Source: Buttiauxella noackiae ATCC 51607 (GTDB lineage Bacteria; Pseudomonadota; Gammaproteobacteria; Enterobacterales; Enterobacteriaceae). From it: a stretch of DNA of 64,000 bases. Numbering within the stretch: the first letter of the stretch is position 1; each line of letters starts with the position of its first letter. Positions 1,448 through 47,252 of the stretch are shown piece after piece. The translations under genes were made by a program, and so were the position numbers. The stretch is taken from the NCBI RefSeq assembly GCF_001654865.1, contig NZ_LXEO01000017.1, positions 124,001 through 188,000 on the forward strand, in the 5' to 3' direction. Below the pieces are notes generated by a model. That model ran no database searches and was not told where the DNA came from. It worked only from the letters and a program-made list of their open reading frames with translations.

Positions 1448-2812
1448 GTGATTAGCATATTCGACATGTTCAAAGTCGGCATTGGGCCATCCAGTTCCCA
1501 TACCGTCGGTCCGATGAAGGCCGGTAAGTTGTTTGTCGATGATCTGGTCGAAAAAGGATTACTGGAAAGCACGACGCGTATTGCGGTCGATGTTTACGGC
1601 TCCCTGTCTCTGACAGGTAAAGGGCACCATACCGATATCGCTATTATCATGGGTCTTGCGGGTAACGAACCTGCCACCGTTGATATTGATTCAATCCCTG
1701 CGTTTATCCGTGATGTAGAAACCCGTGGCCGTTTGTGGCTGGCCCAGGGACGTCATGAGGTTGATTTCCCAAAAGATTCCGGTATGTGTTTCCGCAACGA
1801 CAACCTGTCGCTGCATGAAAATGGCATGACTATCCATGCGTTCAGTGGCGATCAAGAGATCTACACCAAAACGTACTATTCCATCGGCGGTGGTTTTATC
1901 GTTGATGAAGAAAATTTCGGTAAAGAAGCAGCCAACGAAATTGTTGTGCCTTACTCGTTCAATTCTGCCGAAGAGATGCTTAAGCACTGTAAAGAGACGG
2001 GGATGTCCTTGTCTGGCGTGATCATGCAGAACGAGCTGGCTTTGCATAGTCGTAAAGAGATTGAAGAGTATTTTGCCAACGTATGGCAGACCATGCGTGC
2101 CTGTATTGACCGTGGAGTGAACACCGAAGGCGTTCTGCCTGGACCATTGCGTGTGCCACGCCGTGCTTCTGCATTGCGCCGTATGCTGGTTTCTAGCGAC
2201 AAACTCTCCAACGACCCAATGAACGTGGTCGATTGGGTGAACATGTTTGCGCTGGCAGTTAACGAAGAAAACGCTGCAGGTGGGCGTGTGGTAACTGCGC
2301 CTACTAACGGTGCGTGCGGTATCGTTCCTGCTGTGCTTGCGTACTATGACCACTTTATCGAGTCAGTCAGCCCGGATACCTATATCCGCTACTTCCTCGC
2401 ATCAGGTGCAATTGGTGCGCTCTACAAGATGAATGCGTCTATTTCTGGTGCAGAAGTCGGCTGTCAGGGTGAAGTGGGCGTGGCCTGTTCTATGGCTGCC
2501 GCAGGTCTTGCTGAAATTTTAGGCGCAAGCCCGGAGCAGGTTTGTGTTGCAGCGGAAATCGGTATGGAACATAACCTGGGTTTAACCTGCGACCCGGTTG
2601 CAGGTCAGGTTCAGGTACCTTGTATCGAACGTAACGCCATTGCCTCGGTAAAAGCGATTAATGCTACCCGTATGGCGATGCGCCGTACCAGTGAACCGCG
2701 TGTCTCACTCGATAAGGTTATCGAAACCATGTACGAGACAGGCAAAGACATGAACGCCAAATATCGTGAAACTTCACGTGGTGGTCTGGCTATCAAAGTA
2801 CAGTGTGACTAA
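1448..2812 (+). CDS. sdaA: L-serine ammonia-lyase 1 (iron-sulfur L-serine deaminase)
   Basis: Deaminates L-serine to pyruvate and ammonia with a [4Fe-4S] cluster. The protein starts ISIFDMFKVGIGPSSSHT, the hallmark N-terminus of SdaA, and ends IKVQCD as in E. coli. I take the GTG at 1448, preceded by the Shine-Dalgarno AAGGA at 1436-1440; this gives 454 residues, the standard length. An in-frame ATG 21 bases upstream would overlap the ribosome site and add seven unrelated residues. The upstream 270 bases hold no gene and presumably carry the promoter, which in E. coli is controlled by Lrp. The first domain is the serine-responsive beta domain, the second the catalytic alpha domain with its cluster cysteines. 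Confidence 0.97.
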   Translation: MISIFDMFKVGIGPSSSHTVGPMKAGKLFVDDLVEKGLLESTTRIAVDVYGSLSLTGKGHHTDIAIIMGLAGNEPATVDIDSIPAFIRDVETRGRLWLAQGRHEVDFPKDSGMCFRNDNLSLHENGMTIHAFSGDQEIYTKTYYSIGGGFIVDEENFGKEAANEIVVPYSFNSAEEMLKHCKETGMSLSGVIMQNELALHSRKEIEEYFANVWQTMRACIDRGVNTEGVLPGPLRVPRRASALRRMLVSSDKLSNDPMNVVDWVNMFALAVNEENAAGGRVVTAPTNGACGIVPAVLAYYDHFIESVSPDTYIRYFLASGAIGALYKMNASISGAEVGCQGEVGVACSMAAAGLAEILGASPEQVCVAAEIGMEHNLGLTCDPVAGQVQVPCIERNAIASVKAINATRMAMRRTSEPRVSLDKVIETMYETGKDMNAKYRETSRGGLAIKVQCD

Positions 2813-2821
2813 TCCTTTCTG

Positions 2822-2839
2822 GCCCTCTGCAAAGAGGGC
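2822..2839 (+). terminator. Hairpin after sdaA, possible terminator
   Basis: GCCCTCT and AGAGGGC form a seven-pair stem ten bases after the sdaA stop. There is no following T run, so it may act only weakly or stabilise the transcript 3' end. Confidence 0.4.
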
Positions 2840-2960
2840 TAACCTACTCACCGGCATTCATCTTAAAGTATGATTTTACCATCGTGTATCCAATCCCCCA
2901 CTACACTTGGAATGTTCTGTGTGCCGATTTCGGTCACGGTTCTAAACAAGGTGATCGCGG

Positions 2961-4556
2961 ATGCAGACGGCACAACGCATATTAAGAGATTATCGCCGCA
3001 GACGTTTAATTGTCTGCGTTGCGTTAGCCGTATTAGCCCTGCTGCTGACACTCAGTGCGCGCTATATTGCCGATCGTGATTCGAATGAACAACGCATGCA
3101 CGCATTTAACCAAAGAGCAGTCAGTTCACTTGAAAACGTCCTGATACCGCTTGATCTGGCAAGCAAAGATGCTATGCAGTTAATGGGGTTGTCATGTGAA
3201 GCCGCACAACTGAAGATGCGTGAATTAGTGGCGCGTATGCAAACAGTACGAGATATTGGTCTAATTAAGGATGATATCTTTTATTGTTCAAGTATTTTCG
3301 GCCCGCGTTCAATACCGGTTGACCTGGTGCAACCCCGCTTGCCATCACCATTACCACTCTTATTTCTCTCGATAGACCATACGTTACTTAAAGGCACGCC
3401 GATTCTTCTGTCCTGGCATCCTGTGCGCAATAGTCAGCACGACGGAGTCCTGCAAATTATTAATATTGAATTGCTAGCGGGATTTATGCTTGAACCCAGA
3501 CGTCCCTGGGTATCCCGCGCGATGCTAAATATCGCTGATTCGCATTATGAATATGGTAAAGGCCTACTACCCCGAATAACGGTTGACCAAGGGCAAGTCA
3601 GTCATGAGCTGGCATCCGATGTTTTTCCTTTTTCCGTCACTATAATTGGCCCATCCTCCAGTCAACTGGCATTACAAAATATGCCAACACAACTGCCCCT
3701 GGCACTTATTCTCAGCATGTTGCTCGGCTATATAACATGGCTTGCCACAGCAAACCGAATGAGTTTTTCCTGGGAAATTAATCTTGGGCTTGCCCTGAAT
3801 GAGTTCGAAGTTTTTTGCCAGCCACTCGTCAGCTCACGCAATCTTCAATGTGTTGGTGTGGAGCTACTTTTGCGGTGGAATAATCCCCGCCAGGGCTGGA
3901 TTTCACCCGAGGTCTTTATCCCGCTTGCTGAACAGCAAAATTTGATAGCACCATTAACACGTTTTGTGCTAGCGGAAACAGTACGTAATATTGATATCTT
4001 TCCGAAATCCCCTGATTTCAATATCGGAATCAATATCGCGGCTATTCACTTCCACAATGGGGAGATTATCGAAGATTTACGCCACCACTGGTTTCCTGCC
4101 CACCCTATCCAGAAACTGACTCTTGAACTTACGGAACGTGATGCTTTACCGGATGTCGATCTGCGGGTGATACGAGATTTACATCGCATGGGGGTTGATT
4201 TGGCTATTGATGATTTCGGTACAGGTCAGAGCTCGCTGGCTTATCTTGAAACGTTAAATCCAAACGTGCTGAAAATCGATAAATCTTTTACCGCAGCGAT
4301 TGGGACCGACGCAGTCAATTCGACAGTCACTGACATTATTATTGCGCTGGCGCAGCGGCTGGATATTGGTTTAGTGGCTGAAGGAGTGGAAACGCCGCAG
4401 CAAGCAGCGTATCTGCGTAGCCACGGCGTAAATGTACTACAAGGATTTTTGTATGCGCGGCCAATGCCTTTGAAGGAGTTTCCACGATGGTTAGGGGGCA
4501 GCACGCCGCCCCCGCGGCGGAATGGTCATGTTATTCCCATTGTCCCGCTACGCTAA
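2961..4556 (+). CDS. pdeD: Cyclic di-GMP phosphodiesterase PdeD (CSS-motif + EAL)
   Basis: Inner-membrane enzyme (formerly YoaD) that linearises c-di-GMP and so favours motility over biofilm. A membrane segment lies at about residues 14-32, followed by a periplasmic CSS-motif domain with paired cysteines (LSCEAAQ and FYCSSIFG) and a second membrane segment near 240-262. The cytoplasmic EAL domain occupies about 270-515. Its signature reads ELLLRW, followed by NIGINIA, LELTERD, DDFGTG and a late EGVETPQQ, so the metal-binding and catalytic positions look intact. In the family, periplasmic cysteine redox (DsbAB) controls activity and proteolysis. At 531 residues it has normal length. It converges on yoaE with one base between the stops and no room for a terminator. 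Confidence 0.93.
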   Translation: MQTAQRILRDYRRRRLIVCVALAVLALLLTLSARYIADRDSNEQRMHAFNQRAVSSLENVLIPLDLASKDAMQLMGLSCEAAQLKMRELVARMQTVRDIGLIKDDIFYCSSIFGPRSIPVDLVQPRLPSPLPLLFLSIDHTLLKGTPILLSWHPVRNSQHDGVLQIINIELLAGFMLEPRRPWVSRAMLNIADSHYEYGKGLLPRITVDQGQVSHELASDVFPFSVTIIGPSSSQLALQNMPTQLPLALILSMLLGYITWLATANRMSFSWEINLGLALNEFEVFCQPLVSSRNLQCVGVELLLRWNNPRQGWISPEVFIPLAEQQNLIAPLTRFVLAETVRNIDIFPKSPDFNIGINIAAIHFHNGEIIEDLRHHWFPAHPIQKLTLELTERDALPDVDLRVIRDLHRMGVDLAIDDFGTGQSSLAYLETLNPNVLKIDKSFTAAIGTDAVNSTVTDIIIALAQRLDIGLVAEGVETPQQAAYLRSHGVNVLQGFLYARPMPLKEFPRWLGGSTPPPRRNGHVIPIVPLR

Positions 4557-4557
4557 T

Positions 4558-6117
4558 TTACTCTTCTTCATCTTCATGTTCAGAGCGTTCTTTTACCACA
4601 CGAACCAAGTCCACACGGTAATCGTTAGCCTTCACAATCTGGATTCGAAGCGGAGCCATCTCAATGACATCACCCACTTTAGGGATTTGGCCATTCACCG
4701 CGATAACTAAACCGGCGATAGAGGCAATATCTTCCTCATCGTTAACCAGAGTGTTGATATCAAGATGCTGCTGAATCGCGTGCAGATCGGTTGAGCCTTT
4801 AACTAACCAACCATCGCCATCACGTACGATTTCTGGCGTTTCGTCGGCATCAGGGAATTCACCAGCGATAGCTTCCAGAACATCCAGCGGCGTGACCAGG
4901 CCTTGAACCACACCAAATTCGTTATTAACGATAACGAAACTACCGCGAGCACGGCGAAGCACACCCAGCAAGTTAATCGGGTCCAACGTTTCCGGAACCA
5001 CAATCGCAGGTGACCGAGCAGCAATAGAAACCACATCGCCACCATTTTCTAGTGCTACCAGCAACTCTTTGGCACGCACGACTCCGATGATTTCATCAAG
5101 CTCACCGTGACAAACCGGGAACAAACTATGCGGAGATTCCAGCAGTTGCTCGCGAATTTCAGCAGTGGTTTTATCAGCATCCACCCATGATATTTCACCA
5201 CGAGGCGTCATAATGCTGCGGAGCGAACGAGATGCTAAAGTCAGCACACCGTTAATCATATAACGCTCTTCTTCAGCAAAAGATTCAGCTTCAATTGGTG
5301 TGATGGTTTTGTTGTCTTCATTTGAAGAACGCTGTTGGCGTTTGCCATTCATCAAACGCAAAATCGCATCAGCAGTACGGGCACGTAACGGTACATTTGA
5401 CTGATGGCGAATAAAGTTACGACGCGCAATTTGGTTGAAAAACTCGATGATTATCGAGAAACCGATTGCCGCATACAGGTAACCTTTCGGAATATGGAAA
5501 CCAAAGCCTTCTGCTACCAGGCTCAGACCAATCATTAGCAAGAAGCTCAGGCACAGCACAACGACCGTAGGATGTTGGTTAACAAAATTCGTTAACGGTT
5601 TCGATGCCAACAACATCACACCCATCGCAATGACTACCGCCGCCATCATCACTGGCAGATGATTTACCATCCCCACCGCGGTAATAACCGCATCAAGTGA
5701 GAACACTGCATCAAGTACCACAATCTGCAATACCACAACCCAGAAACTGGCATAGCCTTTGCCATGTCCATCATCATGCTGGCGGTTTTCCAGCCGCTCA
5801 TGCAGCTCTGTCGTTGCCTTAAACAGCAAGAACAGGCCACCAAATAGCATAATGAGATCACGCCCGGAGAACGTCATTTCGCCAACGCTGAACAGCGGTT
5901 GCGTTAGTGTCACCATCCATGAAATTAACGACAATAAGCCCAGTCGCATTACCAAAGCCAAGGATAAACCGATAAGTCGGGCTTTATCTCGTTGTTTTGG
6001 TGGAAGTTTATCCGCAAGAATGGCAATAAAGACCAGGTTATCAATACCCAGCACTATTTCCAGCACAATCAGCGTCAATAAACCCACCCATATTTGGGGA
6101 TCCATTAAGAGTTCCAT
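4558..6117 (-). CDS. yoaE: TerC-family membrane protein with CBS pair and CorC_HlyC domain
   Basis: Inner-membrane protein of unproven function. The N-terminal 230 residues form a TerC-type domain with about seven membrane segments and conserved acidic residues (EIVLGIDNL and DAVFSLDAV). Cytoplasmic CBS repeats and a C-terminal CorC_HlyC domain follow. TerC relatives such as Alx act in metal (Mn) export or metal loading of exported proteins; a role for YoaE is inference. The start at 6117 ([10 protein letters not shown]) has AGGAG seven bases upstream and yields 519 residues, close to the E. coli length. A longer frame reaching 6180 lacks similarity at its N-terminus. The gene faces away from manXYZ. 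Confidence 0.92.
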
Positions 6118-6362
6118 GACAGGCTCCTGCTTTGGGAATAACTCATCGGCATCGCGCGCAATGCGGACGCAAAGAGGCAAATTGAGGTATTAAAGGGGCG
6201 TGAAACGCCAGTGTGAAGGACTGAATTTTCAGACCTGAAATTGAAAAGACGTCGGTGACGGTCCATACGGTGGGCTACTGCCCTTTACTCCTGAGCAATT
6301 AAACGAGACGCAAACAATATCAGAGCAAAATACCCTTTTGCAAAGATTTACCTGATTTTGCA

Positions 6363-7754: not shown

Positions 7755-8555
7755 ATGGAGATTACCACTCTTCAGATTGTGCTGGTGTTTGTCGTAGCCT
7801 GTATTGCCGGTATGGAGTCGGTGCTCGATGAATTTCAGTTCCACCGTCCGCTGGTCGCTTGTACCTTAATTGGTCTGGTACTCGGTGATATGAAAACCGG
7901 TATTATTATCGGTGGTACGCTTGAAATGATCGCGTTGGGTTGGATGAACATCGGTGCGGCAGTTGCTCCCGATGCAGCACTAGCGTCAATTATCTCAACC
8001 ATACTGGTTATAGCCGGGCATCAGGGCATCGGTTCTGGTATTGCTCTGGCCATTCCACTGGCTGCAGCAGGCCAGGTTCTGACCATTATCGTTCGTACTA
8101 TCACCGTGGGCTTCCAGCACGCAGCAGATAAGGCCGCCGAAAATGGCAACCTATCGGCGCTCTCCTGGATTCACGTTTCCTCCCTGTTCTTGCAAGCAAT
8201 GCGTATCGCAATTCCTGCCGTTATCGTCGCAGTTTCCGTCGGTACTAGCGAAGTACAGAACATGCTCAATGCCATTCCTGAAGTGGTAACTAGTGGCCTG
8301 AACATCGCCGGTGGCATGATTGTTGTGGTGGGTTATGCGATGGTCATCAACATGATGCGCGCAGGCTACCTGATGCCATTCTTCTATCTGGGCTTCGTTA
8401 CCGCGGCTTTCACCAACTTCAACCTGGTTGCACTGGGTGTGATTGGTGCTGTGATGGCAATTTTGTACATCCAGTTGAGCCCGAAATACAACCGTTCTGC
8501 CGGTGCTCCAGCGCCTGCTGCCGGTGCTAACGATCTCGATAACGAATTAGATTAA
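7755..8555 (+). CDS. manY: Mannose PTS EIIC permease
   Basis: Inner-membrane EIIC subunit that, with ManZ, forms the sugar channel of the mannose PTS. The 266 residues are strongly hydrophobic with several helices, beginning MEITTLQIVLVFVVACIAGM, and the GGTLEMIALGWMNIGAAVAPD region is family-typical. An AAGGAGAAG ribosome site lies just upstream. It is 75 bases after manX and followed within a few bases by manZ. ManYZ is also the receptor for several class II bacteriocins and is used for DNA entry by lambda; this is known for the family and not shown here. Confidence 0.97.
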   Translation: MEITTLQIVLVFVVACIAGMESVLDEFQFHRPLVACTLIGLVLGDMKTGIIIGGTLEMIALGWMNIGAAVAPDAALASIISTILVIAGHQGIGSGIALAIPLAAAGQVLTIIVRTITVGFQHAADKAAENGNLSALSWIHVSSLFLQAMRIAIPAVIVAVSVGTSEVQNMLNAIPEVVTSGLNIAGGMIVVVGYAMVINMMRAGYLMPFFYLGFVTAAFTNFNLVALGVIGAVMAILYIQLSPKYNRSAGAPAPAAGANDLDNELD

Positions 8556-8567
8556 TAGGTGAGCGAA

Positions 8568-9422
8568 ATGGTTGATACCACCAAAACAACGACTACCGAG
8601 AAGAAACTCACCCCAAGTGATATTCGTGGCGTGTTCCTGCGTTCAAACCTTTTCCAGGGTTCCTGGAACTTCGAACGTATGCAAGCGTTGGGCTTCTGCT
8701 TCTCCATGATTCCGGCAATTAAACGCCTGTATCCTGAAAATAACGATGCCCGTAAACAAGCGATTAAACGTCACCTGGAGTTCTTTAACACCCATCCATA
8801 CGTTGCGGCTCCTGTATTGGGCGTTACGCTTGCGATGGAAGAACAACGTGCAAACGGTGCAGAGATTGACGATGGTGCCATTAACGGTATCAAAGTGGGT
8901 CTGATGGGGCCTCTGGCTGGTGTAGGTGACCCAATTTTCTGGGGCACTGTACGTCCAGTGTTTGCAGCACTTGGTGCTGGTATCGCAATGAGCGGTAGCC
9001 TACTTGGCCCACTGTTGTTCTTCATCCTGTTTAACGCCGTGCGTTTGCTGACTCGTTATTACGGCGTCGCTTACGGGTACCGCAAAGGGATCGATATCGT
9101 TAAGGATATGGGTGGCGGCTTCCTGCAAAAACTGACTGAGGGGGCGTCAATTCTCGGCCTGTTTGTCATGGGGGCGCTGGTTAACAAGTGGACACACGTT
9201 AATATACCGCTAGTCGTGTCGAAGATTACCGACCAGACTGGCGCGGTGAAAGTGACCACTGTTCAAACTATTCTTGATCAGTTGATGCCGGGCCTTGTGC
9301 CACTGCTGTTAACGTTCGCTTGTATGTGGTTGCTGCGTAAGAAAGTCAACGCGCTGTGGATCATCATGGGCTTCTTCGTTATCGGTATTGTCGGTTATGC
9401 TATCGGCCTGCTAGGTCTTTAA
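8568..9422 (+). CDS. manZ: Mannose PTS EIID component
   Basis: Membrane-bound EIID subunit of the mannose PTS, forming the transport complex with ManY. Family signatures are LRSNLFQGSWNFERMQ near the N-terminus and GPLAGVGDPIFWGT in the middle. I chose ATG at 8568, preceded by AGGTGA at 8558-8563, giving 284 residues. A GTG at 8559 in the same frame would overlap that ribosome site, adding three residues. The last base of the manY stop is 12 bases away. A strong terminator follows the stop. Confidence 0.96.
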   Translation: MVDTTKTTTTEKKLTPSDIRGVFLRSNLFQGSWNFERMQALGFCFSMIPAIKRLYPENNDARKQAIKRHLEFFNTHPYVAAPVLGVTLAMEEQRANGAEIDDGAINGIKVGLMGPLAGVGDPIFWGTVRPVFAALGAGIAMSGSLLGPLLFFILFNAVRLLTRYYGVAYGYRKGIDIVKDMGGGFLQKLTEGASILGLFVMGALVNKWTHVNIPLVVSKITDQTGAVKVTTVQTILDQLMPGLVPLLLTFACMWLLRKKVNALWIIMGFFVIGIVGYAIGLLGL

Positions 9423-9437
9423 TTAGTTTTTTATACG

Positions 9438-9463
9438 AACCGGGGCCTTTGCCCCGGTTTTTT
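9438..9463 (+). terminator. Rho-independent terminator of manXYZ
   Basis: The perfect nine-pair stem AACCGGGGC / GCCCCGGTT with a CTTT loop is followed by a T run, 15 bases after the manZ stop. Confidence 0.92.
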
Positions 9464-9487
9464 ATTGTTTAGAGTGAAGGTAGTGTT

Positions 9488-9946
9488 ATGACTTTGACGG
9501 ATGTAGTTCTGCTGGTATTTATTGTGCTGTTGCTTGCCTGGGCGGTTTACGATGAGTTCATCATGGATAAACTCAAAGGCAAGACTCTACTTAAAGTGCC
9601 CCTTCTGCGCCGTAACCGTATCGACGGAACCATTTTCTTCGGGTTGGTTGCTATCCTCATCTACAACAACGTCACCTCTGGCGGCGCTCCGGTCACTACA
9701 TGGTTATTATCTGCGCTGGCACTCATTGCTATTTATATTTCGTGGATTAGACAACCTAAATTACTGTTTAAAGCTGAAGGCTTCTTCTTCGCGAATGTGT
9801 GGGTTTTATATTCCCGAATTAAAGAAATTAATTTATCTGAGGATGGTGTTCTGGTATTGCAATTAGAACAACGCCGCTTGCTTGTCCGGGTGAAAAACAT
9901 TGATGACCTGGAGAAGATTTATAAGTTTATGGTGGTTACTCAATAA
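9488..9946 (+). CDS. yobD: UPF0266-family membrane protein YobD
   Basis: Inner-membrane protein of unknown function, 152 residues as in E. coli. Three hydrophobic segments are visible, at about residues 4-20, 43-62 and 65-84, and then a soluble C-terminal part. It sits between the man operon terminator and mntP. AAGGTAGTGTT upstream of the ATG provides a ribosome site. Nothing in the sequence reveals its role; the conserved position beside mntP does not by itself link it to manganese. Confidence 0.9.
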
Positions 9947-9952
9947 GTTACC

Positions 9953-9972
9953 AACATAGCAAAGTCTATATT
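9953..9972 (+). promoter_or_regulatory. Candidate MntR operator upstream of mntP
   Basis: AACATAGCAAAGTCTATATT resembles the MntR palindrome, whose half sites read roughly AACATAGC and GCTATGTT; the right half has two mismatches. MntR activates mntP in E. coli. Its place about 170-190 bases before the riboswitch start fits an activator site only if the promoter lies close downstream. Confidence 0.5.
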
Positions 9973-10065
9973 CATATATTTATTGAACGACGTATAAAAT
10001 ATAGCCACTGCTATTTCGCACAATTAGTGTGCTCTTATTATAACAATTCGCTCATCAATTAAGGC

Positions 10066-10086
10066 AAATGAAAATCGTTATCATTT
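10066..10086 (+). promoter_or_regulatory. Possible Fur box upstream of mntP
   Basis: AAATGAAAATCGTTATCATTT matches the Fur consensus (alternating GATAAT-like half sites) at most positions. It lies between the MntR-like site and the riboswitch. Control of mntP by iron is therefore possible but not established by the sequence. Confidence 0.4.
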
Positions 10087-10140
10087 AAACATTAAGAATA
10101 ACAACTTCAATTATTGTTTTATCTTTAAAGAATATGTTAA

Positions 10141-10284
10141 GGTTGCGCCCGTCGTTGGGGAGTAGCCGATTTTCGCGATTGCGAAAATGTACATGTCAAC
10201 ATACTCGTTACTTGTTTAAGCAAGAATTATAACGTGGCATGTACGACTCAAATACTGAGTAGGCGAGACCATAGGCACGTAACC
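10141..10284 (+). ncRNA. yybP-ykoY manganese riboswitch
   Basis: The leader carries the yybP-ykoY core GGGGAGTAGCC near 10158-10168 and the second conserved internal loop ACTGAGTAGGCGAGACC near 10254-10270. The closing P1 stem pairs GGTTGCG (10141-10147) with CGTAACC (10278-10284). The class binds Mn2+ directly and raises mntP expression. A second stem, AGTTGGG at 10293-10299 with CCCAACT at 10325-10331, ends right at the GAGG ribosome site and is the likely expression platform. Confidence 0.95.
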
Positions 10285-10342
10285 ATCATTTAAGTTGGGG
10301 ATGGTTGACGTGTATATGGATATTCCCAACTGAGGCGTTTGC

Positions 10343-10915
10343 ATGAATCTCTCCGCTACTATTATTCTCGCTTTTGGCATGTCGATGGATGCTTTTGCTG
10401 CGTCAATCGGGAAAGGTGCCTCTCTCCATAAACCTAAGTTTTCCGAAGCCTTACGAACCGGGCTTATCTTTGGTGTAATCGAAACTATCACCCCGCTTAT
10501 CGGCTGGTGCCTCGGTCTTCTGGCAAGCCAGGTTGTACTGGAATGGAATCATTGGGTTGCATTCATCCTGCTCGTATTTCTCGGCATTCGTATGATTTAT
10601 GAAGGTGTGCGCGGCAATGATGATGAAGAAGCGCCAAAGCTACAACGTCATGGATTTTGGCTATTAGTCACCACGGCTATCGCCACGAGTCTTGATGCTA
10701 TGGCAGTTGGTGTCGGCCTCGCATTCCTGCAAGTCAATATCATTGAAACCGCTTTGGCCATTGGTTGCGCGACCATGATTATGTCCACGCTGGGTATGAT
10801 GCTGGGCCGCTTTATCGGCCCGCTGCTCGGTAAGCGCGCCGAGATCCTCGGCGGAGTGGTATTAATTGGGATTGGTTGTCAGATTCTTTATAGCCACTTC
10901 AGCGCACTAAACTGA
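10343..10915 (+). CDS. mntP: Manganese exporter MntP
   Basis: Inner-membrane Mn2+ efflux pump (formerly YebN), 190 residues, two more than E. coli. About six membrane segments are present, with the duplicated acidic motifs [14 protein letters not shown] and [12 protein letters not shown] that carry the metal-coordinating aspartates. ATG at 10343 follows GAGG at about 10333-10336. Expression is expected to be induced by Mn through MntR and the upstream riboswitch. Its 3' end overlaps the rlmA 3' end by nine bases on opposite strands. Confidence 0.97.
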
Positions 10916-11719
10916 TGCTTCGCGTCGCCAGACGCGGATCACAAAATCTGTCTCACAAACAAATGCCGTTTCAGCCGTCAAAGCCTGCCACACTTCCGGG
11001 CGGGCACGCCAGGCGAACGGCGTCATTTGCAATAGCGCAGCCGCTTCATTTCCCTGTAACGTCATTGGCCAGCCAATGCTCTGCGTCTGTTCTGCAATAA
11101 AACCGGGTAAGGATTCAGACTCCGTGCTATGCAGTACCACATTGTCATAAATTAAACCTTTCAGCTGCATTAAATGGCGTGGGCCCGGCGTGGCAGTGAT
11201 GACGATGCCGCCAGGTTTAACCACCCGCGCAAGCTCTTCCGCTTTGCATGGAGCAAAAATACGCACTACGGCATCCAGACTATTATCATCAAATGGCAAA
11301 CGGTGGCTTGATGCCACACAGAACTGCACCTGCGGATAGCGCTTTGCCCCATAGCGAATCGCTACTTTTGCAACATCTAATCCCCAGGTCATTCCTTCAT
11401 GTTTTGCAACAATCTGTGCAAAACCAGCCGTGTAATACCCTTCCCCACAGCCTATATCCAGCAACGTAACCGGCGCGGTTTGTTCTAAGATCAGGCAGAT
11501 AGCATCACGCAGCGGCTGATAGTGCCCGGCATCAAGGAATGTTCTGCGGGCCTGCATCATTTCGCTGCTATCACCGGGGTCTTTTGAACGCTTATGCTGA
11601 ACCGGCAGCAAATTCACATATCCCTCTTTTGCCTTATCAAATTGGTGGCCTTGCGGGCAAACAAAGCTCTTCCCTTTGGGATCAAGCGGTGCATGACAAA
11701 GCGGGCAAAGATAAGACAT
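10907..11719 (-). CDS. rlmA: 23S rRNA (guanine-745-N1)-methyltransferase RlmA
   Basis: SAM-dependent methyltransferase that modifies G745 of 23S rRNA. The N-terminal zinc ribbon is seen as CPLCH and CPQGHQFD (residues about 5-25). The Rossmann fold has the SAM motif [13 protein letters not shown] start at 11719 (MSYLCPLC), with GGAG five bases upstream, giving 270 residues; a longer frame to 11749 adds ten unrelated residues. The gene runs toward mntP and their ends overlap. Confidence 0.95.
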
Positions 11720-11781
11720 AAGAACTCCAGGCAATCGTAAAGGGCGCAAGTGTACCGCTTACTCCCCGCTTCGAAAAGCCA

Positions 11782-40274: not shown

Positions 40275-40501
40275 TGGCTGACTCAATGGATTTAGTACAA
40301 CTGCGCGTGGATGAAGAACTGGCGCGTAATATCAAGCAGGCCCGCCGACAGCCTCAGCGTGCCGCCAGCGCATTCTTTTGCGAAGAATGTGACACTGCTA
40401 TCCCTCAGGCGCGTCGTGCTGTCGTGCCGGGTGTCACGCACTGCATTACCTGTCAGGAAATCGCAGAGCTGAAAAATCAGCATTACAAGAATGCGATATG
40501 A
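40274..40501 (+). CDS. TraR/DksA-type C4 zinc-finger protein
   Basis: A 75-residue protein with a C-terminal four-cysteine zinc finger, FFCEECDTAIPQARR then HCITCQEIAE. Relatives bind in the secondary channel of RNA polymerase; the phage forms may adjust host transcription during infection. It overlaps gene A by four bases, so the three genes are coupled. Confidence 0.85.
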   Translation: MADSMDLVQLRVDEELARNIKQARRQPQRAASAFFCEECDTAIPQARRAVVPGVTHCITCQEIAELKNQHYKNAI

Positions 40502-42852
40502 ACGGGATTAAATTCGCCTGGCCGTGGAACGCACCACGGCAGGCGATTGCCAGCCCATATCAGACCTATAAAGAACAGCACCGCCGTGATCGAGAGATTG
40601 CGGCGTTGCTGCGTGCGCGTGATGCACTGGCGAAACAGCCGGATTGCGTGCGTTACGATATTAATCGCCGGGTTGATTATTTAGAGCGTAATTTTGGTGT
40701 TCAACGAGCCAATGCTCACCTCGTCACGTTTGTCAGGCGGGCATTGCCACGGCTTGAACAGGTCGCCGGTATTTATCAAATCACCGGCATCGACAGTCAT
40801 CTTTCACATCAGTTGTTTGGCGGTCATTTTGATGCGCCAGATATCCGCTTTCTTGCCTCAAAACTTGTGAATCTGACCGCCCGATATAACCGTCTCCAGG
40901 ATATGTCCAAAGCCGATATTGAACTGCTGGCCGCTGATATTGCCAATTACATTAATGGCGAGATTGGAACCATAGACGGCGATGTCAGCAGGCTAAAAAT
41001 ATTGCACGCGATTTACATGCGAGCGGCACAGATAGCCCGTCATTTTAAATGCCAGCCGCCACTGTGGGAGCGCGTCACTACTAAGTTAGTTTCCCTTGAT
41101 GATATCGGCCCTGCCGTGCTGCGCATGGTCAATGAAAAATGGTGGCGTGGCCGCTTGCGCCGTGTCGCCTCTGAATGGCGTGAACACCTGCAAATTGCCC
41201 TGGGCAATGTCAGTAAAAAACACACCCCGTATGCCAGTAAATCCTGTGTTGCGGAATGGCGCGAACAAAGACGGCGCACGCGTGAATTTCTCAAGGGCAT
41301 GGATCTTGAGGACGAAGAAGGAAACCGCATCAGCCTTATCGATAAATACGATGGCAGTGTGGCTAATCCGGCCATTCGTCGCGGCGAATTAATGACGCGT
41401 ATCAGCGGGTTTGAAAAGATCTCAACTGAACTGGGTTATGTGGGAGAGTTTTACACCCTGACCGCGCCGTCGAAATACCACGCCACAACGAAAGCAGGCT
41501 ATCGCAACAGCAAGTGGAACGGTGCCAGCCCCGCAGAAACGCAGAGTTATTTAACCTCCGTCTGGTCGCGTATTCGCGCCAAACTCCACCGAGCTGAATT
41601 GCGCATTTTTGGTATCCGGGTTGCAGAGCCTCATCACGATGGAACACCACACTGGCACATGCTGATATTCATGCGCCCGGAGGATGTATCTCGCGTGCGT
41701 GCCGTTATGCTGAAATATGCACATCAGGAAGATGCCGCAGAGCTGGTGAGTGATAAAGCCCGCAAAGCTCGCTTTCATGCCGAAGCTATCGACCCGGAAA
41801 AAGGTAGCGCCACCGGCTATGTGGCGAAATACATCAGTAAAAACATTGATGGTTTTGCGCTGGACGGTGAACGCGATGACGAAAGCGGTGAGCTGTTAAA
41901 AGAAACGGCTCCGGCAGTTGCAGCCTGGGCGGCTCGCTGGCGTATCCGTCAGTTTCAGTTTGTGGGCGGTGCGCCTGTAACGGTTTATCGCGAACTGCGA
42001 AAAATGGCTGACAGCGAGACAGCCCACGCGCTCAGTATTGAGTTTGCCGCCGTACATGATGCGGCTGATGCGGGTAAGTGGGCGGAATACGTCAACGCAC
42101 AGGGTGGCCCGTTTGTGCGCCGTGATGAGTTGCAGGTGCGCACCTGGTATGAACAAAGCGAAACCCTCAACGAATACGGTGAGGAATGCACGCGAATTAA
42201 AGGTGTTTTTGATGCCACCGTTGGCATTGATACTCCGATTTTAACCCGCCTCATACAGTGGAAGATTGTCCCAAAACGTGCCGTTGATTTGGACGTTGAC
42301 CTTAAGGGCGATCCTTCGCCCTCTCGGAGTTCTGTCAATAACTGTACGGGGGAGAATGTCGGTGCTCCCCCTTCCCCACCAGAAATAGACCTCAGTAAAC
42401 CGCTGAGCCGGTCGGCCAGACGAAAATTAACGGAGCGAATAACAGAGAAGAAACCAAAACGACATCATTTATCACCTTATCCTGACGTATCTAACGATAA
42501 GGCGGTGAACTTACTCATTGAGAACGCTAAGAAACAAACGGGTGAAACCATAAATCGTGGCACAGCTCTGCATCTTATCGCTGGCAGTAAAATATCTATC
42601 GATGGCAATTGGTATCGAGGCTCATCCAATGGGGAATTAATCGCTACAAAACCAGATACCACAGCATTGAGGGTTAAAAAGCTTTGGAAAAGTATGAACG
42701 AAATGCACAACGTTGATACAGGTAAGGTCATTCATGACCCATTTGGCCAATATGCGCAGATGCTCAAGAAAGCCGACCCTCTAGCGTGGGATCGTCTTTT
42801 CGGAACTGATGAAATGAGGCTACGAATTTGCACAACTTTCAGACCGCAGTAA
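40498..42852 (+). CDS. A: Replication initiation endonuclease A (HUH family)
   Basis: Nicks the phage origin and starts rolling-circle replication by linking to the 5' end. The HUH metal motif appears as GTPHWHMLIF near residues 382-391, and the paired catalytic tyrosines as YVAKYISKN at about Tyr441 and Tyr445, four residues apart as in P2 A. The length, 784, is slightly above P2 A (761). In P2 the origin lies inside the A gene, so the same is likely here. The tail of the gene (after about residue 610) is less conserved and AT-richer. Confidence 0.94.
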   Translation: MNGIKFAWPWNAPRQAIASPYQTYKEQHRRDREIAALLRARDALAKQPDCVRYDINRRVDYLERNFGVQRANAHLVTFVRRALPRLEQVAGIYQITGIDSHLSHQLFGGHFDAPDIRFLASKLVNLTARYNRLQDMSKADIELLAADIANYINGEIGTIDGDVSRLKILHAIYMRAAQIARHFKCQPPLWERVTTKLVSLDDIGPAVLRMVNEKWWRGRLRRVASEWREHLQIALGNVSKKHTPYASKSCVAEWREQRRRTREFLKGMDLEDEEGNRISLIDKYDGSVANPAIRRGELMTRISGFEKISTELGYVGEFYTLTAPSKYHATTKAGYRNSKWNGASPAETQSYLTSVWSRIRAKLHRAELRIFGIRVAEPHHDGTPHWHMLIFMRPEDVSRVRAVMLKYAHQEDAAELVSDKARKARFHAEAIDPEKGSATGYVAKYISKNIDGFALDGERDDESGELLKETAPAVAAWAARWRIRQFQFVGGAPVTVYRELRKMADSETAHALSIEFAAVHDAADAGKWAEYVNAQGGPFVRRDELQVRTWYEQSETLNEYGEECTRIKGVFDATVGIDTPILTRLIQWKIVPKRAVDLDVDLKGDPSPSRSSVNNCTGENVGAPPSPPEIDLSKPLSRSARRKLTERITEKKPKRHHLSPYPDVSNDKAVNLLIENAKKQTGETINRGTALHLIAGSKISIDGNWYRGSSNGELIATKPDTTALRVKKLWKSMNEMHNVDTGKVIHDPFGQYAQMLKKADPLAWDRLFGTDEMRLRICTTFRPQ

Positions 42853-42929: not shown

Positions 42930-42945
42930 CTGTATATTCATACAG
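42930..42945 (+). promoter_or_regulatory. LexA (SOS) box
   Basis: CTGTATATTCATACAG matches the LexA palindrome CTGT-N8-ACAG exactly in both half sites. It ends 21 bases before the following start codon, at promoter position, so that gene should be DNA-damage inducible. Confidence 0.9.
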
Positions 42946-42966: not shown

Positions 42967-43152
42967 ATGCTGATGGAAGAGACCAGGCGTACCCAACATA
43001 AGTGGGCGTGCGTACAATTTATCGCTGAGGTATCACTGATAGCGAATTGCAAACCATCAGATTTAAAGCTGGCGCTTTCGCTGATAGCTGACCTGGCGAA
43101 CAGTGAAAATGTGAATCAGGAAAGCGATGATGTTTACTACGAAGCGAAGTGA
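42967..43152 (+). CDS. SOS-controlled small prophage protein (possible antirepressor)
   Basis: A 61-residue protein, MLMEETRRTQHKWACVQFIA at its start, mostly helical with an acidic end. A perfect LexA box covers its promoter and AGAGG precedes the ATG. In 186 and Fels-2, prophage induction is achieved by a LexA-controlled antirepressor (Tum) that inactivates CI. This gene is in a different place and shorter than 186 Tum, so equating them is inference. It is alternatively a helper of the induction cascade. Confidence 0.65.
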   Translation: MLMEETRRTQHKWACVQFIAEVSLIANCKPSDLKLALSLIADLANSENVNQESDDVYYEAK

Positions 43153-43340: not shown

Positions 43341-43359
43341 GGCGTGGCGGGGATAGCAT
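43341..43359. other. P2-type cos site (cohesive-end core)
   Basis: GGCGTGGCGGGGATAGCAT differs by one base from the 19-base cohesive end reported for 186-like phages (GGCGTGGCGGGGAAAGCAT) as I remember it. It lies between the early region and the portal/terminase genes, where P2 has cos. Terminase (P and M) would cut here when packaging. Confidence 0.88.
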
Positions 43360-43425: not shown

Positions 43426-46182
43426 ATGAGCATCGAAGATCGACTTAGATTGCTTGCGCAAACAAACTCAAATTATTCTTTATTATTATCCCAATGGGAA
43501 TTTGATAAAAAACTCATACATCGGGCACTGAACTCTGTTGCAACAACATTCCCACATTATAGCCTTCATGACTCATCCCATTCCTCAACAATTTTGACAC
43601 AAATTGAGAAAATAATCTTACCTGACATAGATAGTTTATCCGCTACTGATTGTTGGTTGCTGCTGGAATCATGCTACTGGCATGATGCAGGTATGATTAT
43701 TACTAAAGAGCAAAAGCTGGAATTAGTAAAGAGCCCCGAATTTAGACGTTTCTTAGATGAGCATATAGAGTCAGACTCGGATTTGATAAAGCATGCAATT
43801 GACATTAAAGATAAGAATATCATCGATAATTATGTTGAAATAATTGCGTTATCGGACTCAATGACCTTTATAATTGCTGATTTTTTCAGAAAAAAACATC
43901 CTGAATTATCTGGGAGATATGTGAGTAATCCTCAGATGGCAAATATAAACTCACCTAGAAACTATTTAATCCCAAGCAGATTGTTTGGGATATTATCAAA
44001 AATCGTTGCTTGCCATGGTCAAGAGCGTGATGAAATAATAAAATTACCTCATTGCAATGATGGGATGGATGCGAATGATTATGCACACCCACGTTATGTA
44101 GCGGCTCTTTTAAGGCTTGGAGATTTATTAGATATCGATGATGGGCGATTTTGTGAAACACTTCTCGCTTCTATTGGAGATATCCCAAAAACATCTCATG
44201 ATCATAAGAAAAAACATTCATCCATTACAAGTCTCCTCATTAACAATGATATTATAGAAATTGAAGCGATATGCTCAGAGTATGGTAGTTACAATGCGCA
44301 AATATCTTGGTTTGATTATATAAGAGAGGAGTTTGAATTTCAAAAAAACCACTGGCTTGAAATTTGCCCGAATAACAAGCACTCATCTCTACCAATTATA
44401 TCAAAGTTAGACTGCCAGTTAATTGACCATATTGGAATTGATAATTTACCACCAAAAATAACATTGGATGAAAAAAGGGTTTATGAATATATAACTAGCT
44501 CTGCTATTTACAATGAGAAATATCCTTTTATAAGAGAGATTGTTCAAAATGCAATTGATGCAACCATGTATAAATGCTGGGGAGATTTATTGTATAAGAA
44601 AAATGGAGAAATCAATGATTGTAATAAGCACGATCTTCGTTGTGAGTTCGAAAACCATCTCATTCAAGAGCAGATAGAGATTCATTTAGAACCTTTAACG
44701 TCCGATAATGAATATATTAACTACATTTTTCGAGTGCGCGATTACGCCACAGGTATGTCAATAGAAGATATTAAAAAAGTACTTAAGGTTGGCTCTCCTA
44801 CAGGATCTAAACGAAAGCGAATGCTAGAAAAAATGCCTGATTGGGCAAAACCAACAGGCTTTTTCGGAATTGGCCTTCAAAGTGTCTTTACAATGTGTCA
44901 CGATGTTTCTATCAAAACACGTTGCCCATATGGCACTGGCTATCAAATAACCATTATTCAAACAAATTCTAATCCAGATTTCATAATTAAGAAATTTGAG
45001 GATGAATTTTTCCACGGGACGGAGGTTAAACTCACTATTAGTGAACTAAAAATTCCTCGATCGGTGCCATTTTCAGCAACTGAAGCCATGAGAAAATTTG
45101 ATCCTTTTCATCACGATAAATTTGAAATCGCCCCATCAATTATTAAAGAAACACTTGCCAAAACATTTATAACATCTCCAATAAAAGTTCTTTTTAACAA
45201 CGAAAATGTAATAAATAACATTCCTTTCATTGAAGAAGATTCTATAGCAACACCAAGCACCTCAACAGACTTTGATAATGGTGTGGATTTTAATCTTCGA
45301 GTTGACCTAGCCCGAAATTACTCCATATCTGTTTATTATAAAAATAGCAAGCTTGAAACAAAAGGCATCTCATTTGGAATGATGGGAGTGGCAGGGTTTA
45401 TAGATATATTTTCTGGAAATGCTGGTGAATGGGTAACTATAAACAGAACTCAACTAAAACAAAACAAAAATGATGACTTGGCCTTTTTGCTGGATGCAAT
45501 AATCCAAAAGCATAAAGATGCCATCACACAAAATACAGAAAATAAAAACGAGGCTTCTTTTTACTTTCATTCACAATTTAATGATATTAGCAATAAGTTG
45601 TGGGAAAATTATATGATTAATAATATAGCCATTAAAGATTACATTGATGGTAGCAATGTAATTGAGTTTTATGCTGGAAGCACAACCATAAAACATTCAT
45701 CTATTGAGTTCACGCAGAACCCAATAACTTACTGCTTATCAAAGCTTGTACGAAATCATAATTTGAAAGCATATTTTTCTTTTGAAGGGGACTTCGAAGA
45801 CAACACTCCTTTTAAAAATAAATACTTCTCTTTCAATGTCAAGATTATTAATGAATACCCAACGGATAAATATATAGACAAAATCATAATCCAACGATTA
45901 TATGGTTTAAAATCTAAAGAATATCGATATCTTGCACCATGCTTTGATAAAAAATATCTCGACATTTCATTTAGTGCTATTGATACTCCCCCATGGGTGT
46001 TCAAGCTATTCTATCCTTGGGAGTTCGAAAATTACCTAGTAATGCCTCACAACTCATCCTCAAATAGATCAGATGATGCAAGAGCTATTTATGGGTATTA
46101 CAAAGAGAGAGGTCTTACCAGCTTAGATGTGGATCTATTCACAAAAAAATACATTTCCATGTGGGAAGACTTGGGTTTGTAA
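43426..46182 (+). CDS. HD-domain and GHKL/Hsp90-like ATPase fusion protein, candidate anti-phage defence
   Basis: A large AT-rich cargo gene with its own start (ribosome site AGAGAG) and terminator. Residues about 40-240 form an HD-type metal-dependent hydrolase domain: SLHDSSH (His48, Asp49), YWHDAG (His86, Asp87), ACHGQ (His197) and RLGDLLDID (Asp233). Residues about 360-620 form a GHKL ATPase: REIVQNAIDA (N box, Glu371, Asn375), RDYATGMS (G1 box, Asp439) and GFFGIGLQS (G2 box). The remaining 300 residues have no recognised fold. Nothing suggests membrane segments. It lies between cos and the portal gene Q, where P2 has no gene. Role in defence is inference from slot, composition and domain type. 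I recognise no described system with this exact architecture. Confidence 0.75.
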   Translation: MSIEDRLRLLAQTNSNYSLLLSQWEFDKKLIHRALNSVATTFPHYSLHDSSHSSTILTQIEKIILPDIDSLSATDCWLLLESCYWHDAGMIITKEQKLELVKSPEFRRFLDEHIESDSDLIKHAIDIKDKNIIDNYVEIIALSDSMTFIIADFFRKKHPELSGRYVSNPQMANINSPRNYLIPSRLFGILSKIVACHGQERDEIIKLPHCNDGMDANDYAHPRYVAALLRLGDLLDIDDGRFCETLLASIGDIPKTSHDHKKKHSSITSLLINNDIIEIEAICSEYGSYNAQISWFDYIREEFEFQKNHWLEICPNNKHSSLPIISKLDCQLIDHIGIDNLPPKITLDEKRVYEYITSSAIYNEKYPFIREIVQNAIDATMYKCWGDLLYKKNGEINDCNKHDLRCEFENHLIQEQIEIHLEPLTSDNEYINYIFRVRDYATGMSIEDIKKVLKVGSPTGSKRKRMLEKMPDWAKPTGFFGIGLQSVFTMCHDVSIKTRCPYGTGYQITIIQTNSNPDFIIKKFEDEFFHGTEVKLTISELKIPRSVPFSATEAMRKFDPFHHDKFEIAPSIIKETLAKTFITSPIKVLFNNENVINNIPFIEEDSIATPSTSTDFDNGVDFNLRVDLARNYSISVYYKNSKLETKGISFGMMGVAGFIDIFSGNAGEWVTINRTQLKQNKNDDLAFLLDAIIQKHKDAITQNTENKNEASFYFHSQFNDISNKLWENYMINNIAIKDYIDGSNVIEFYAGSTTIKHSSIEFTQNPITYCLSKLVRNHNLKAYFSFEGDFEDNTPFKNKYFSFNVKIINEYPTDKYIDKIIIQRLYGLKSKEYRYLAPCFDKKYLDISFSAIDTPPWVFKLFYPWEFENYLVMPHNSSSNRSDDARAIYGYYKERGLTSLDVDLFTKKYISMWEDLGL

Positions 46183-46186
46183 TAAT

Positions 46187-46211
46187 AAAGGGCGATAATA
46201 TATCGCCCTTT
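46187..46211. terminator. Bidirectional terminator between the HD-ATPase gene and Q
   Basis: AAAGGGCGATA pairs perfectly with TATCGCCCTTT around ATA. It lies four bases after one stop and six before the other gene's end. Confidence 0.88.
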
Positions 46212-46217
46212 ATTTAA

Positions 46218-47252
46218 TTAAAAGTCAGCGCCTAGAGTATAATTTTTAAAAAGCACAACCTCGGCACCAATCCACTCATTAACCTCTTTAATCCGCTCCT
46301 GCAAAGGCGTCAGCTCGTTACGCACAAACACCTGTGCGGCTTTCACCACGTCACCGAAACCACCGGTATTGTTGGGAATGACGCCCATCATTTGCGGCGG
46401 CACGCGATGCGCACTCATCAAGTCTTCGGCACTGGCTTTCTTGATGTTAAAGAAATCGTCTTTGGTCGCCACTTCACTGAGTGGCACAATCTTGATGCCG
46501 TCCGGTTTGCCGTTGGGTGCGTAGAAAAACAGGTTCTTAAAATTCCCCAGGCCTTTTGAGCTGCGCATCGCCTCGCGCAGCGCTTCCACGTCGGTGCTGC
46601 TCTGCGCGGCGTCAGTGACATACATGATATAACCGGCGTGCGCGCCGTTCTGGTAATACTTGCGGCGAAACAGCGTGGCCGACTCATTCAGCCAGGCCGA
46701 ATTAAGCGCGCTGAGGTATTCCGGCAGGCCGTACAACTCCTGATTAATATCCGGCTCCAGCAGATGAAACACCGAACCCGGCGCGAACTCATGCGGGGTG
46801 ACAAACGACTGCACAAACCAGTACGCATCCTCGCCGGTGCCCTTGCGGGTGTATTTGGCCGGTGAGGTTTCCAGCCTTAACAGCTTGCCGGTCACGCTCA
46901 TGCGCTTTTCTAAAAACGCATTACCGAACACCAGAAAATCCAGCGCAAAGCGGCTGAAATCCTGCTGTGAAAGTAACGGATGCGGAATGAATGTCGAGGC
47001 CAGAATATTGCGCTTCACATAAATCGGCGAGCTGTGGTGAACGGCTGCGCGCAACGTTTTGGCAAGGCCGGTAAAGCTTACCGGCGGCTCAAACCATTTG
47101 CCGTTACCGACGCACTCGGTGTAATCCAGAATGTCACGGCGGTCGAGCACCGGCGACGGTTCGCCAAAGGTGAACGCTTCCATTTTTTGCGGTGCCGCAG
47201 CCGGTGGTGTGAGGGTGTTTTTTGCTGCGTGATGTTTGCGTTTCTTCGCCAT
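46218..47252 (-). CDS. Q: Phage portal protein (gpQ)
   Basis: Forms the dodecameric portal vertex through which DNA enters the capsid. The 344 residues match P2 Q closely in order of motifs: EAFTFGEPSPVLDRRDILDY, VHHSSPIYVKRNILASTFIP, GLPEYLSALNSAWLNESATL and a C-terminal GAEVVLFKNYTLG. It is the second gene of the leftward packaging operon, its ATG overlapping the P stop (TAATG). Confidence 0.96.
   Translation of the reverse strand: MAKKRKHHAAKNTLTPPAAAPQKMEAFTFGEPSPVLDRRDILDYTECVGNGKWFEPPVSFTGLAKTLRAAVHHSSPIYVKRNILASTFIPHPLLSQQDFSRFALDFLVFGNAFLEKRMSVTGKLLRLETSPAKYTRKGTGEDAYWFVQSFVTPHEFAPGSVFHLLEPDINQELYGLPEYLSALNSAWLNESATLFRRKYYQNGAHAGYIMYVTDAAQSSTDVEALREAMRSSKGLGNFKNLFFYAPNGKPDGIKIVPLSEVATKDDFFNIKKASAEDLMSAHRVPPQMMGVIPNNTGGFGDVVKAAQVFVRNELTPLQERIKEVNEWIGAEVVLFKNYTLGADF

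Follow-up and report, generated by a model that had tools for sequence, protein, structure and literature searches.

What is the gene lying between the cos site and the portal gene of a P2-type prophage of Buttiauxella noackiae ATCC 51607, and what may its product, a predicted HD hydrolase domain followed by an Hsp90-like ATPase, do for the phage or its host? The window, i.e. the whole stretch of 64,000 nt that was analysed, holds an intact ORF with an ATG start at 43426-46182 of the forward strand, where an earlier note on this DNA had placed it, coding for 918 aa. Since a simple composition estimate assigns to 918 sense codons a probability of about 6e-32, the gene is not expected by chance. 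Its parts, and the features that surround it, are the following.

43426..46182, + strand: protein of 918 aa with HD-CE and Hsp90-like ATPase parts, candidate single-gene immune protein
43549..44334, + strand: HD-CE domain, residues 42-303 (Pfam PF24391; conserved residues)
44476..45051, + strand: GHKL/Hsp90 N-domain-like ATPase, about residues 351-542 (hhalign, NCBIfam HtpG, HATPase_c_3)
45052..45585, + strand: probable Hsp90-type middle domain, borders approximate (Foldseek alignments; R674 unchanged)
45586..46179, + strand: C-terminal part, about 200 residues, no family match (Pfam, NCBIfam; model of moderate confidence)
43341..43359, + strand: cos-like 19-mer
46184..46214, either strand: hairpin, terminator-like on both strands, between the convergent gene and Q (folding energy)
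46218..47252, - strand: portal gene Q, bordering the slot on the right (Phage_portal, 1.4e-15)
40498..42852, + strand: replication gene A, bordering the A-Q region on the left (Phage_GPA, 6e-123)

The flanks are those of a phage of the P2/186 type. Pfam recognizes the A, portal, GPO scaffold, CII and CI families, and at the DNA level the flanks match Klebsiella, Erwinia, Salmonella, 186, PSP3 and P2 records. Of the 19 bases of the cos-like site, 16 are those of P2 cosL, and the sequence to its left is similar to the cosR side of P2. The ATG of the 918-aa gene is found 66 bases to the right of this site, and its stop is 35 bases away from the stop of the convergent portal gene Q. As noticed earlier, the gene is AT-rich amid GC-richer flanks, its GC content being 0.339 versus 0.51 in A, 0.542 in Q and 0.567 in P. 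A ribosome site and a terminator of its own had also been claimed, and both were recognized, as the purine-rich AGAGAGAA preceding the ATG and as a hairpin in the interval between the gene and Q (-18.5 kcal/mol, z -5.6; -19.0 on the other strand). This hairpin is absent from the output of a pattern scanner, and promoter-like sites in the region (16, versus a mean of 14.8 in shuffles) are not above chance. Between A and cos, a LexA-type palindrome, CTGTATATTCATACAG, occurs at 42930-42945 (chance would give 0.71 such sites in the window), and is directly followed by an ORF of 61 aa (42967-43152). The latter sits where 186-type phages have their SOS-controlled tum gene; tum is named within the matched stretch of one matching phage record.

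An HD-CE domain in front of an Hsp90-like ATPase

Residues 42-303 match the HD-CE family of Pfam (PF24391) at 2.6e-47 and 162.2 bits (cut-off 27), over positions 1-261 of the 263 of the profile. The HD residues H48, D49, H52, H86, D87, H197 and D233, and H221 in addition, are unchanged in every row covering them in an alignment of 15 sequences, the window included; the first ones are missing from one viral-contig sequence (L213), and H44 is not conserved, being N in L179. A metal site of the HD type had been proposed at about residues 48-87, 197 and 233, and the residues are found at these places; their metal-binding role is an assumption carried over from HD enzymes. H-HD-H-H-D is the pattern of two-metal HD phosphodiesterases, and the intact set H52, H86-D87, H197, H221 and D233 is unlike the inactive iHD-CE type. 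The protein shares with the Pfam family a near full-length match, intact HD residues and a HATPase next to them, as in other members. Judged by its sequence, it is a member of the HD-CE family, and nothing in the sequence excludes membership.

The part that follows carries the three motifs of a GHKL ATP-binding fold, as proposed in the earlier note, i.e. the N box (R370-A379), G1 (D439-M444) and G2 (G478-S486). In the 15-sequence alignment, E371, N375, D378, D439, G443, G481, G483 and R674 are unchanged in all covering rows, R674 being missing from one sequence (L006). The profile of the 15 sequences was aligned by hhalign with six HtpG-type proteins over residues 339-542, at a probability of 98.5%; no alignment extends past residue 542, and R674 falls outside it. 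The NCBIfam HtpG model (NF003555) matches residues 351-540 at 9.3e-9, with 34.3 bits versus an equivalog cut-off of 371, and HATPase_c_3 of Pfam reaches 0.0015, below its cut-off. By equivalog score, the ATPase part is to be classed as Hsp90-like, and not as an HtpG. GHKL N-domain motifs are shared with Hsp90 chaperones (HtpG, TRAP1), and so, probably, are the fold over N and middle domains and a conserved arginine in the middle part; in contrast to these, the 918-aa protein has HD-CE in front, and scores far below the HtpG equivalog. R674 is plausibly the counterpart of the Hsp90 catalytic arginine, because its NR motif can be set beside NVSRE of HtpG. The C-terminal stretch of about 200 residues gave no Pfam or NCBIfam match. 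A solved relative was sought among PDB sequences with phmmer and the search was set aside, having returned only weak Hsp90 (TRAP1) matches, the best at E 0.018.

AlphaFold2 modelled the full-length protein with a pLDDT of 54.4 (six sequences), and residues 335-918 with a pLDDT of 68.4 (seven sequences). In the HD half of the full-length model pLDDT is mostly <50 before residue 80 and over residues 173-257; as this half is modelled with low confidence, it is the profile match that supports its fold. The best 50 of 280 PDB matches of the full-length model found by Foldseek (E ≤ 0.001), and the best 50 of 300 of the 335-918 model (E ≤ 0.001), all belong to the Hsp90 family by title. Among the matches listed, alignments to Hsp90 mostly span 400-500 columns, with large rmsd. 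The models support an Hsp90 layout made of N and middle domains, the relative placement of which is unreliable. Structure prediction and search, suggested earlier as a check, thus led to the Hsp90 family for the ATPase part and to a low-confidence model for the HD half; the reading of the protein as made of two domains is well supported by Pfam HD-CE, NCBIfam HtpG, hhalign and Foldseek.

HD-CE was reportedly named by Nicastro, Burroughs, Iyer and Aravind in 2023. The same authors are said to have viewed HD-CE as an immune effector directed at nucleotides and HSP90 modules as analogues of STAND, and to have predicted the coupling of HD-CE and HSP90. Pfam names the domain, and with this reported proposal the idea of the earlier note would coincide with a prediction already made, at which it arrived independently. 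Among the open-access papers listed, which cover the field in part, none was found that tests an HD-CE/HSP90 protein by experiment, and such a test may exist. The additions of this work are a new HD-CE/Hsp90 member, evidence for its Hsp90 N and middle domains, a count of the cosL-Q slot and the pairing of P2-like and P4-like copies.

Comparable features have been described in other systems. VcSduA, the GHKL-ATPase Shedu of Vibrio cholerae, is reported to be active against phages, and its GHKL ATPase has been hypothesised to control an effector enzyme within one protein; the effector is however a C-terminal PD-(D/E)xK nuclease, versus the N-terminal HD here (PMC12137116). In Clover, as far as the accessible sections tell, an HD enzyme (the dNTPase CloA) similarly acts on nucleotides in anti-phage defence, but the system consists of two proteins, a dNTPase and an NTase, without an Hsp90 part (PMC12265719). 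ParaMORC GHKL ATPases, likewise joined to a predicted effector in conflict systems, differ in having HEPN at the C-terminus and in belonging to another GHKL lineage (PMC3710099). In a 2026 paper (PMC13092281), HATPase appears in the legend of a figure showing defence domains that are predicted and unvalidated; an HD-CE protein may or may not be meant there.

Relatives and the cosL-Q slot

A search of the protein with PADLOC 2.0.0 (5,027 models) gave 0 families at E ≤ 1; the attribution to a named defence system was rejected, and no system name is assigned for this reason. The earlier note knew of no named system with this layout, and took a placement in a described family by profile search as refuting its reading. 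The protein is so placed, as PF24391 matches far above its cut-off, and proteins combining HD-CE and HATPase occur in other bacteria.

The distribution of relatives is patchy. One distant match was found in 50,697 phage records and four in 72,556 plasmid records, and no DNA match to the gene was found by megablast or blastn in 5,426 E. coli genomes. At least five contigs of IMG/VR carry a relative, one identical, others at 59%, 37% and 31%, and a partial one (L213), which was the one new relative in two degenerate motif scans of viral contigs (5 stretches each); a Q match is present on 2 of the 5. The contig with the identical relative (L001) equals the window over 18,754 of 18,754 bases, and is therefore regarded as one element with it, lending no independent support. 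Of the 295 genomes of the host family, 2 match at E ≤ 1e-5, and in the order 6 of 394 have a match over >450 profile positions among the matches listed, the genome of the window being included in both counts. An order-wide profile search matched 359 of 394 genomes; this number was set aside as a count of relatives, because most of the rows listed, which are ordered by E-value, cover little more than the ATPase, in frames about 620-700 aa long, and were taken for HtpG. The HD-CE family is above its cut-off in 17 of 398 genomes of the phylum, and in 0 of 14 control genomes.

Fourteen HD-CE proteins, the window one included, were scanned with Pfam. HATPase_c_3 matches nine of them, and is below cut-off in the window protein and in the second protein of one order genome (L233). 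Other partners are WD40 repeats (L047), nSTAND with a weak TPR (L048) and, next to an iHD-CE match, a wHTH-HSP90-associated domain (L049); two proteins (L045, L046) have nothing further of note beside HD-CE. Varied partners are what one would expect if HD-CE were an effector whose sensors can be exchanged. The L049 protein (8334-11717, - strand, 1128 aa) combines iHD-CE, HD-CE and wHTH-HSP90-associated matches with a weak match to the ATPase part, and perhaps is, from these domain matches, a protein of the HD-CE/HSP90 kind whose HD part is inactive.

Some of the relatives, but not all, reside in mobile elements. On plasmids, three copies have integrases or recombinases, an AbiEii-type gene or an Abi family gene in their vicinity, and one copy in a viral contig adjoins an HNH gene, RecT and tail-fibre genes being nearby. 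Three relatives (L005, L038 and L234) are in contrast located amid metabolic genes, and no mobile or defence family was detected among the 6, 4 and 3 neighbour proteins scanned, respectively (2, 0 and 1 of which matched no family).

The gene had been described as sitting where P2 has none. This is true for the cosL-Q side only, where P2 carries the Q terminator alone, since P2 tin and old lie just across cos, on the cosR side; moreover, the gap is often filled in other P2-like phages. A scan of IMG/VR for cos sequences gave at least 120 loci; in 87 of these Q was located rightward of cos, and in 33 no Q was found. Among the 87 loci listed, the cosL-Q gap measures ≤250 bases in 55, 251-931 bases in 8 and >1 kb in 24. 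Large inserts are distinct at the DNA level, falling into 25 clusters when 26 of them, with those of the window and of L002, are compared. The window insert and that of L002, a P2-like viral contig with its own cos, A and Q, are 72% identical over 1,635 bases, and the 59% homologue of L002 lies exactly in the gap. The survey of the gap, earlier suggested as a check, thus identifies the cosL-Q side of cos as a regular cargo slot in P2-like phages.

Ten of the 24 inserts >1 kb were scanned, one long ORF each, chosen among the longest. PADLOC matches were found in seven of the ten ORFs (L112, L096, L098, L072, L077, L116 and L087), the models matched being two related retron RT-Toprim, DRT UG36, an AAA ATPase (PARIS/Septu-like), PDC-S59 (weak), LmuB (Lamassu) and REase_II (type II REase); the L112 and L098 inserts are mutually related. 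The L139 ORF has no PADLOC match and contains a NACHT domain by Pfam. For two further ORFs (L110, 665 aa, and L109, 545 aa) neither Pfam nor PADLOC gives a match, so that this part of the slot's cargo is unexplained. The inference that the gene occupies a defence slot is therefore well supported. Rousset et al. had previously described the A-Q region as a hotspot containing validated anti-phage systems in E. coli, and P2-like hotspots also host non-defence cargo, such as partition genes (PMC9122126). The 918-aa gene lies between A and Q, beside cos, hence at the position by which this hotspot is defined. P2 old/tin and the hotspot share with it the A-Q region next to cos; differences are that the survey deals with E. 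coli genomes, where this gene has no DNA match, and that old/tin of P2 are on the cosR side (PMC9122126).

Proposed role, and other explanations

The observations establish that the protein has two domains with intact catalytic motifs, and that its gene sits in a slot used by other P2-like phages for genes matching defence models. A function of the 918-aa protein in defence is quite probable. The HD domain is likely to be a nucleotide-acting effector, and the Hsp90 part is favoured, by a slight preference, as sensor and gate. Taken as a whole, we lean towards a single-gene, prophage-encoded immune protein having the HD domain as effector. According to this model, the C-terminal two thirds would work as an Hsp90-like N-middle ATPase clamp, able to sense infection or a client made by the phage. 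ATP-driven closure of the clamp would release the N-terminal HD-CE domain, and the latter, once freed, would hydrolyse nucleotides, or a nucleotide signal. The infecting phage would be halted, probably along with the cell; both the nucleotide substrate and the abortive outcome are what we infer. Less favourable to the model are the relatives located amid metabolic genes, the ORFs of the slot that PADLOC leaves unmatched, the non-defence cargo of P2-like hotspots, and the presence of a Q match on just 2 of the 5 viral contigs with a relative.

Other roles may be envisaged for the same protein. By destroying the cyclic-nucleotide messengers of CBASS, Thoeris or Pycsar, the HD domain could guard the carrier phage, with the Hsp90 part regulating or stabilising it. 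Such counter-defence would agree with the unchanged H-HD-H-H-D set, the two-metal phosphodiesterase pattern, and with a phage-borne gene at the end of the genome, but relatives reside in chromosomes and plasmids too, HD-CE is fused in cells to nSTAND and WD40, partners taken as typical of immune effectors, and its size exceeds what one would expect of an anti-defence factor, the protein being large. We assign to this explanation a low probability. It is similarly improbable that the gene is a lysogenic-conversion or stress gene, by which an Hsp90-like chaperone joined to a signalling-nucleotide hydrolase would change host physiology and have no part in defence. The patchy occurrence (2 of 295 family genomes and, for long matches among those listed, 6 of 394 order genomes, own included), the lack of a DNA match in 5,426 E. 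coli genomes, and the presence of copies in cos-side slots of both a P2-like phage and a P4-like element all argue against this role, although three relatives (L005, L038 and L234) lie among metabolic genes, and the GHKL part is closest to HtpG/TRAP1. Because the gene starts 66 bases from cos, a role at cos or in packaging was also considered. Its position alone speaks for this possibility, which is highly improbable: the gap is ≤250 bases in 55 of the 87 P2-like loci listed, and large inserts are distinct (25 clusters among 26).

As it stands by itself, with a start and a terminator of its own, is hosted by a P2-type prophage and has no DNA match in the E. coli genomes searched, the candidate immune gene is a ready test case to learn whether an Hsp90 fold can sense infection, and what HD-CE hydrolyses.

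A second HD-CE gene in the same genome

The sole other HD-CE match above cut-off in the genome of the window is on contig C65, and corresponds to an HD-CE/HATPase protein of 863 aa. By BLASTP this divergent protein shares only 25% with the window protein, over the ATPase part. The C65 gene is flanked on one side by an integrase adjoining tRNA-Leu(CAA), and on the other by a cos-like site, the 19 bases of which are the same as in the window; two Ogr/Delta zinc fingers follow (the element is at L037 6463-11537). This is, we assume, the layout of a P4-type satellite, and the element is labelled P4-like because of the tRNA-Leu(CAA), the integrase, the cos-like site and the two Ogr/Delta fingers. 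Several observations speak against this label. Pfam recognizes nothing in the ORF at L037 11537-12004, and contigs other than C65 carry the partial match to Psu and the primase zinc ribbon of P4 type. Phage records match only the tRNA-Leu stretch of the C65 region and 64 further bases, and none matches the HD-CE protein. The element may be a remnant. A relative of the L037 type (49%) is carried by genome G048; neither a tRNA nor a match to the cos pattern was found in the 19.5 kb around it.

A more speculative scenario, which we regard as rather unlikely, is that the Hsp90 N-M clamp is a chaperone-derived counterpart of NLRs, in which a phage protein would be bound as client, and the ATP cycle would fire the HD hydrolase. 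Helper phage and P4-like satellite, together in one cell, would each carry a divergent version of their own beside cos, as rival or complementary receptors in a contest among helper, satellite and invader.

Two HD-CE/HATPase genes also occur within 3 kb in a genome of the order (L233), where they face each other at 2716-6120 (+ strand) and 8823-11723 (- strand).
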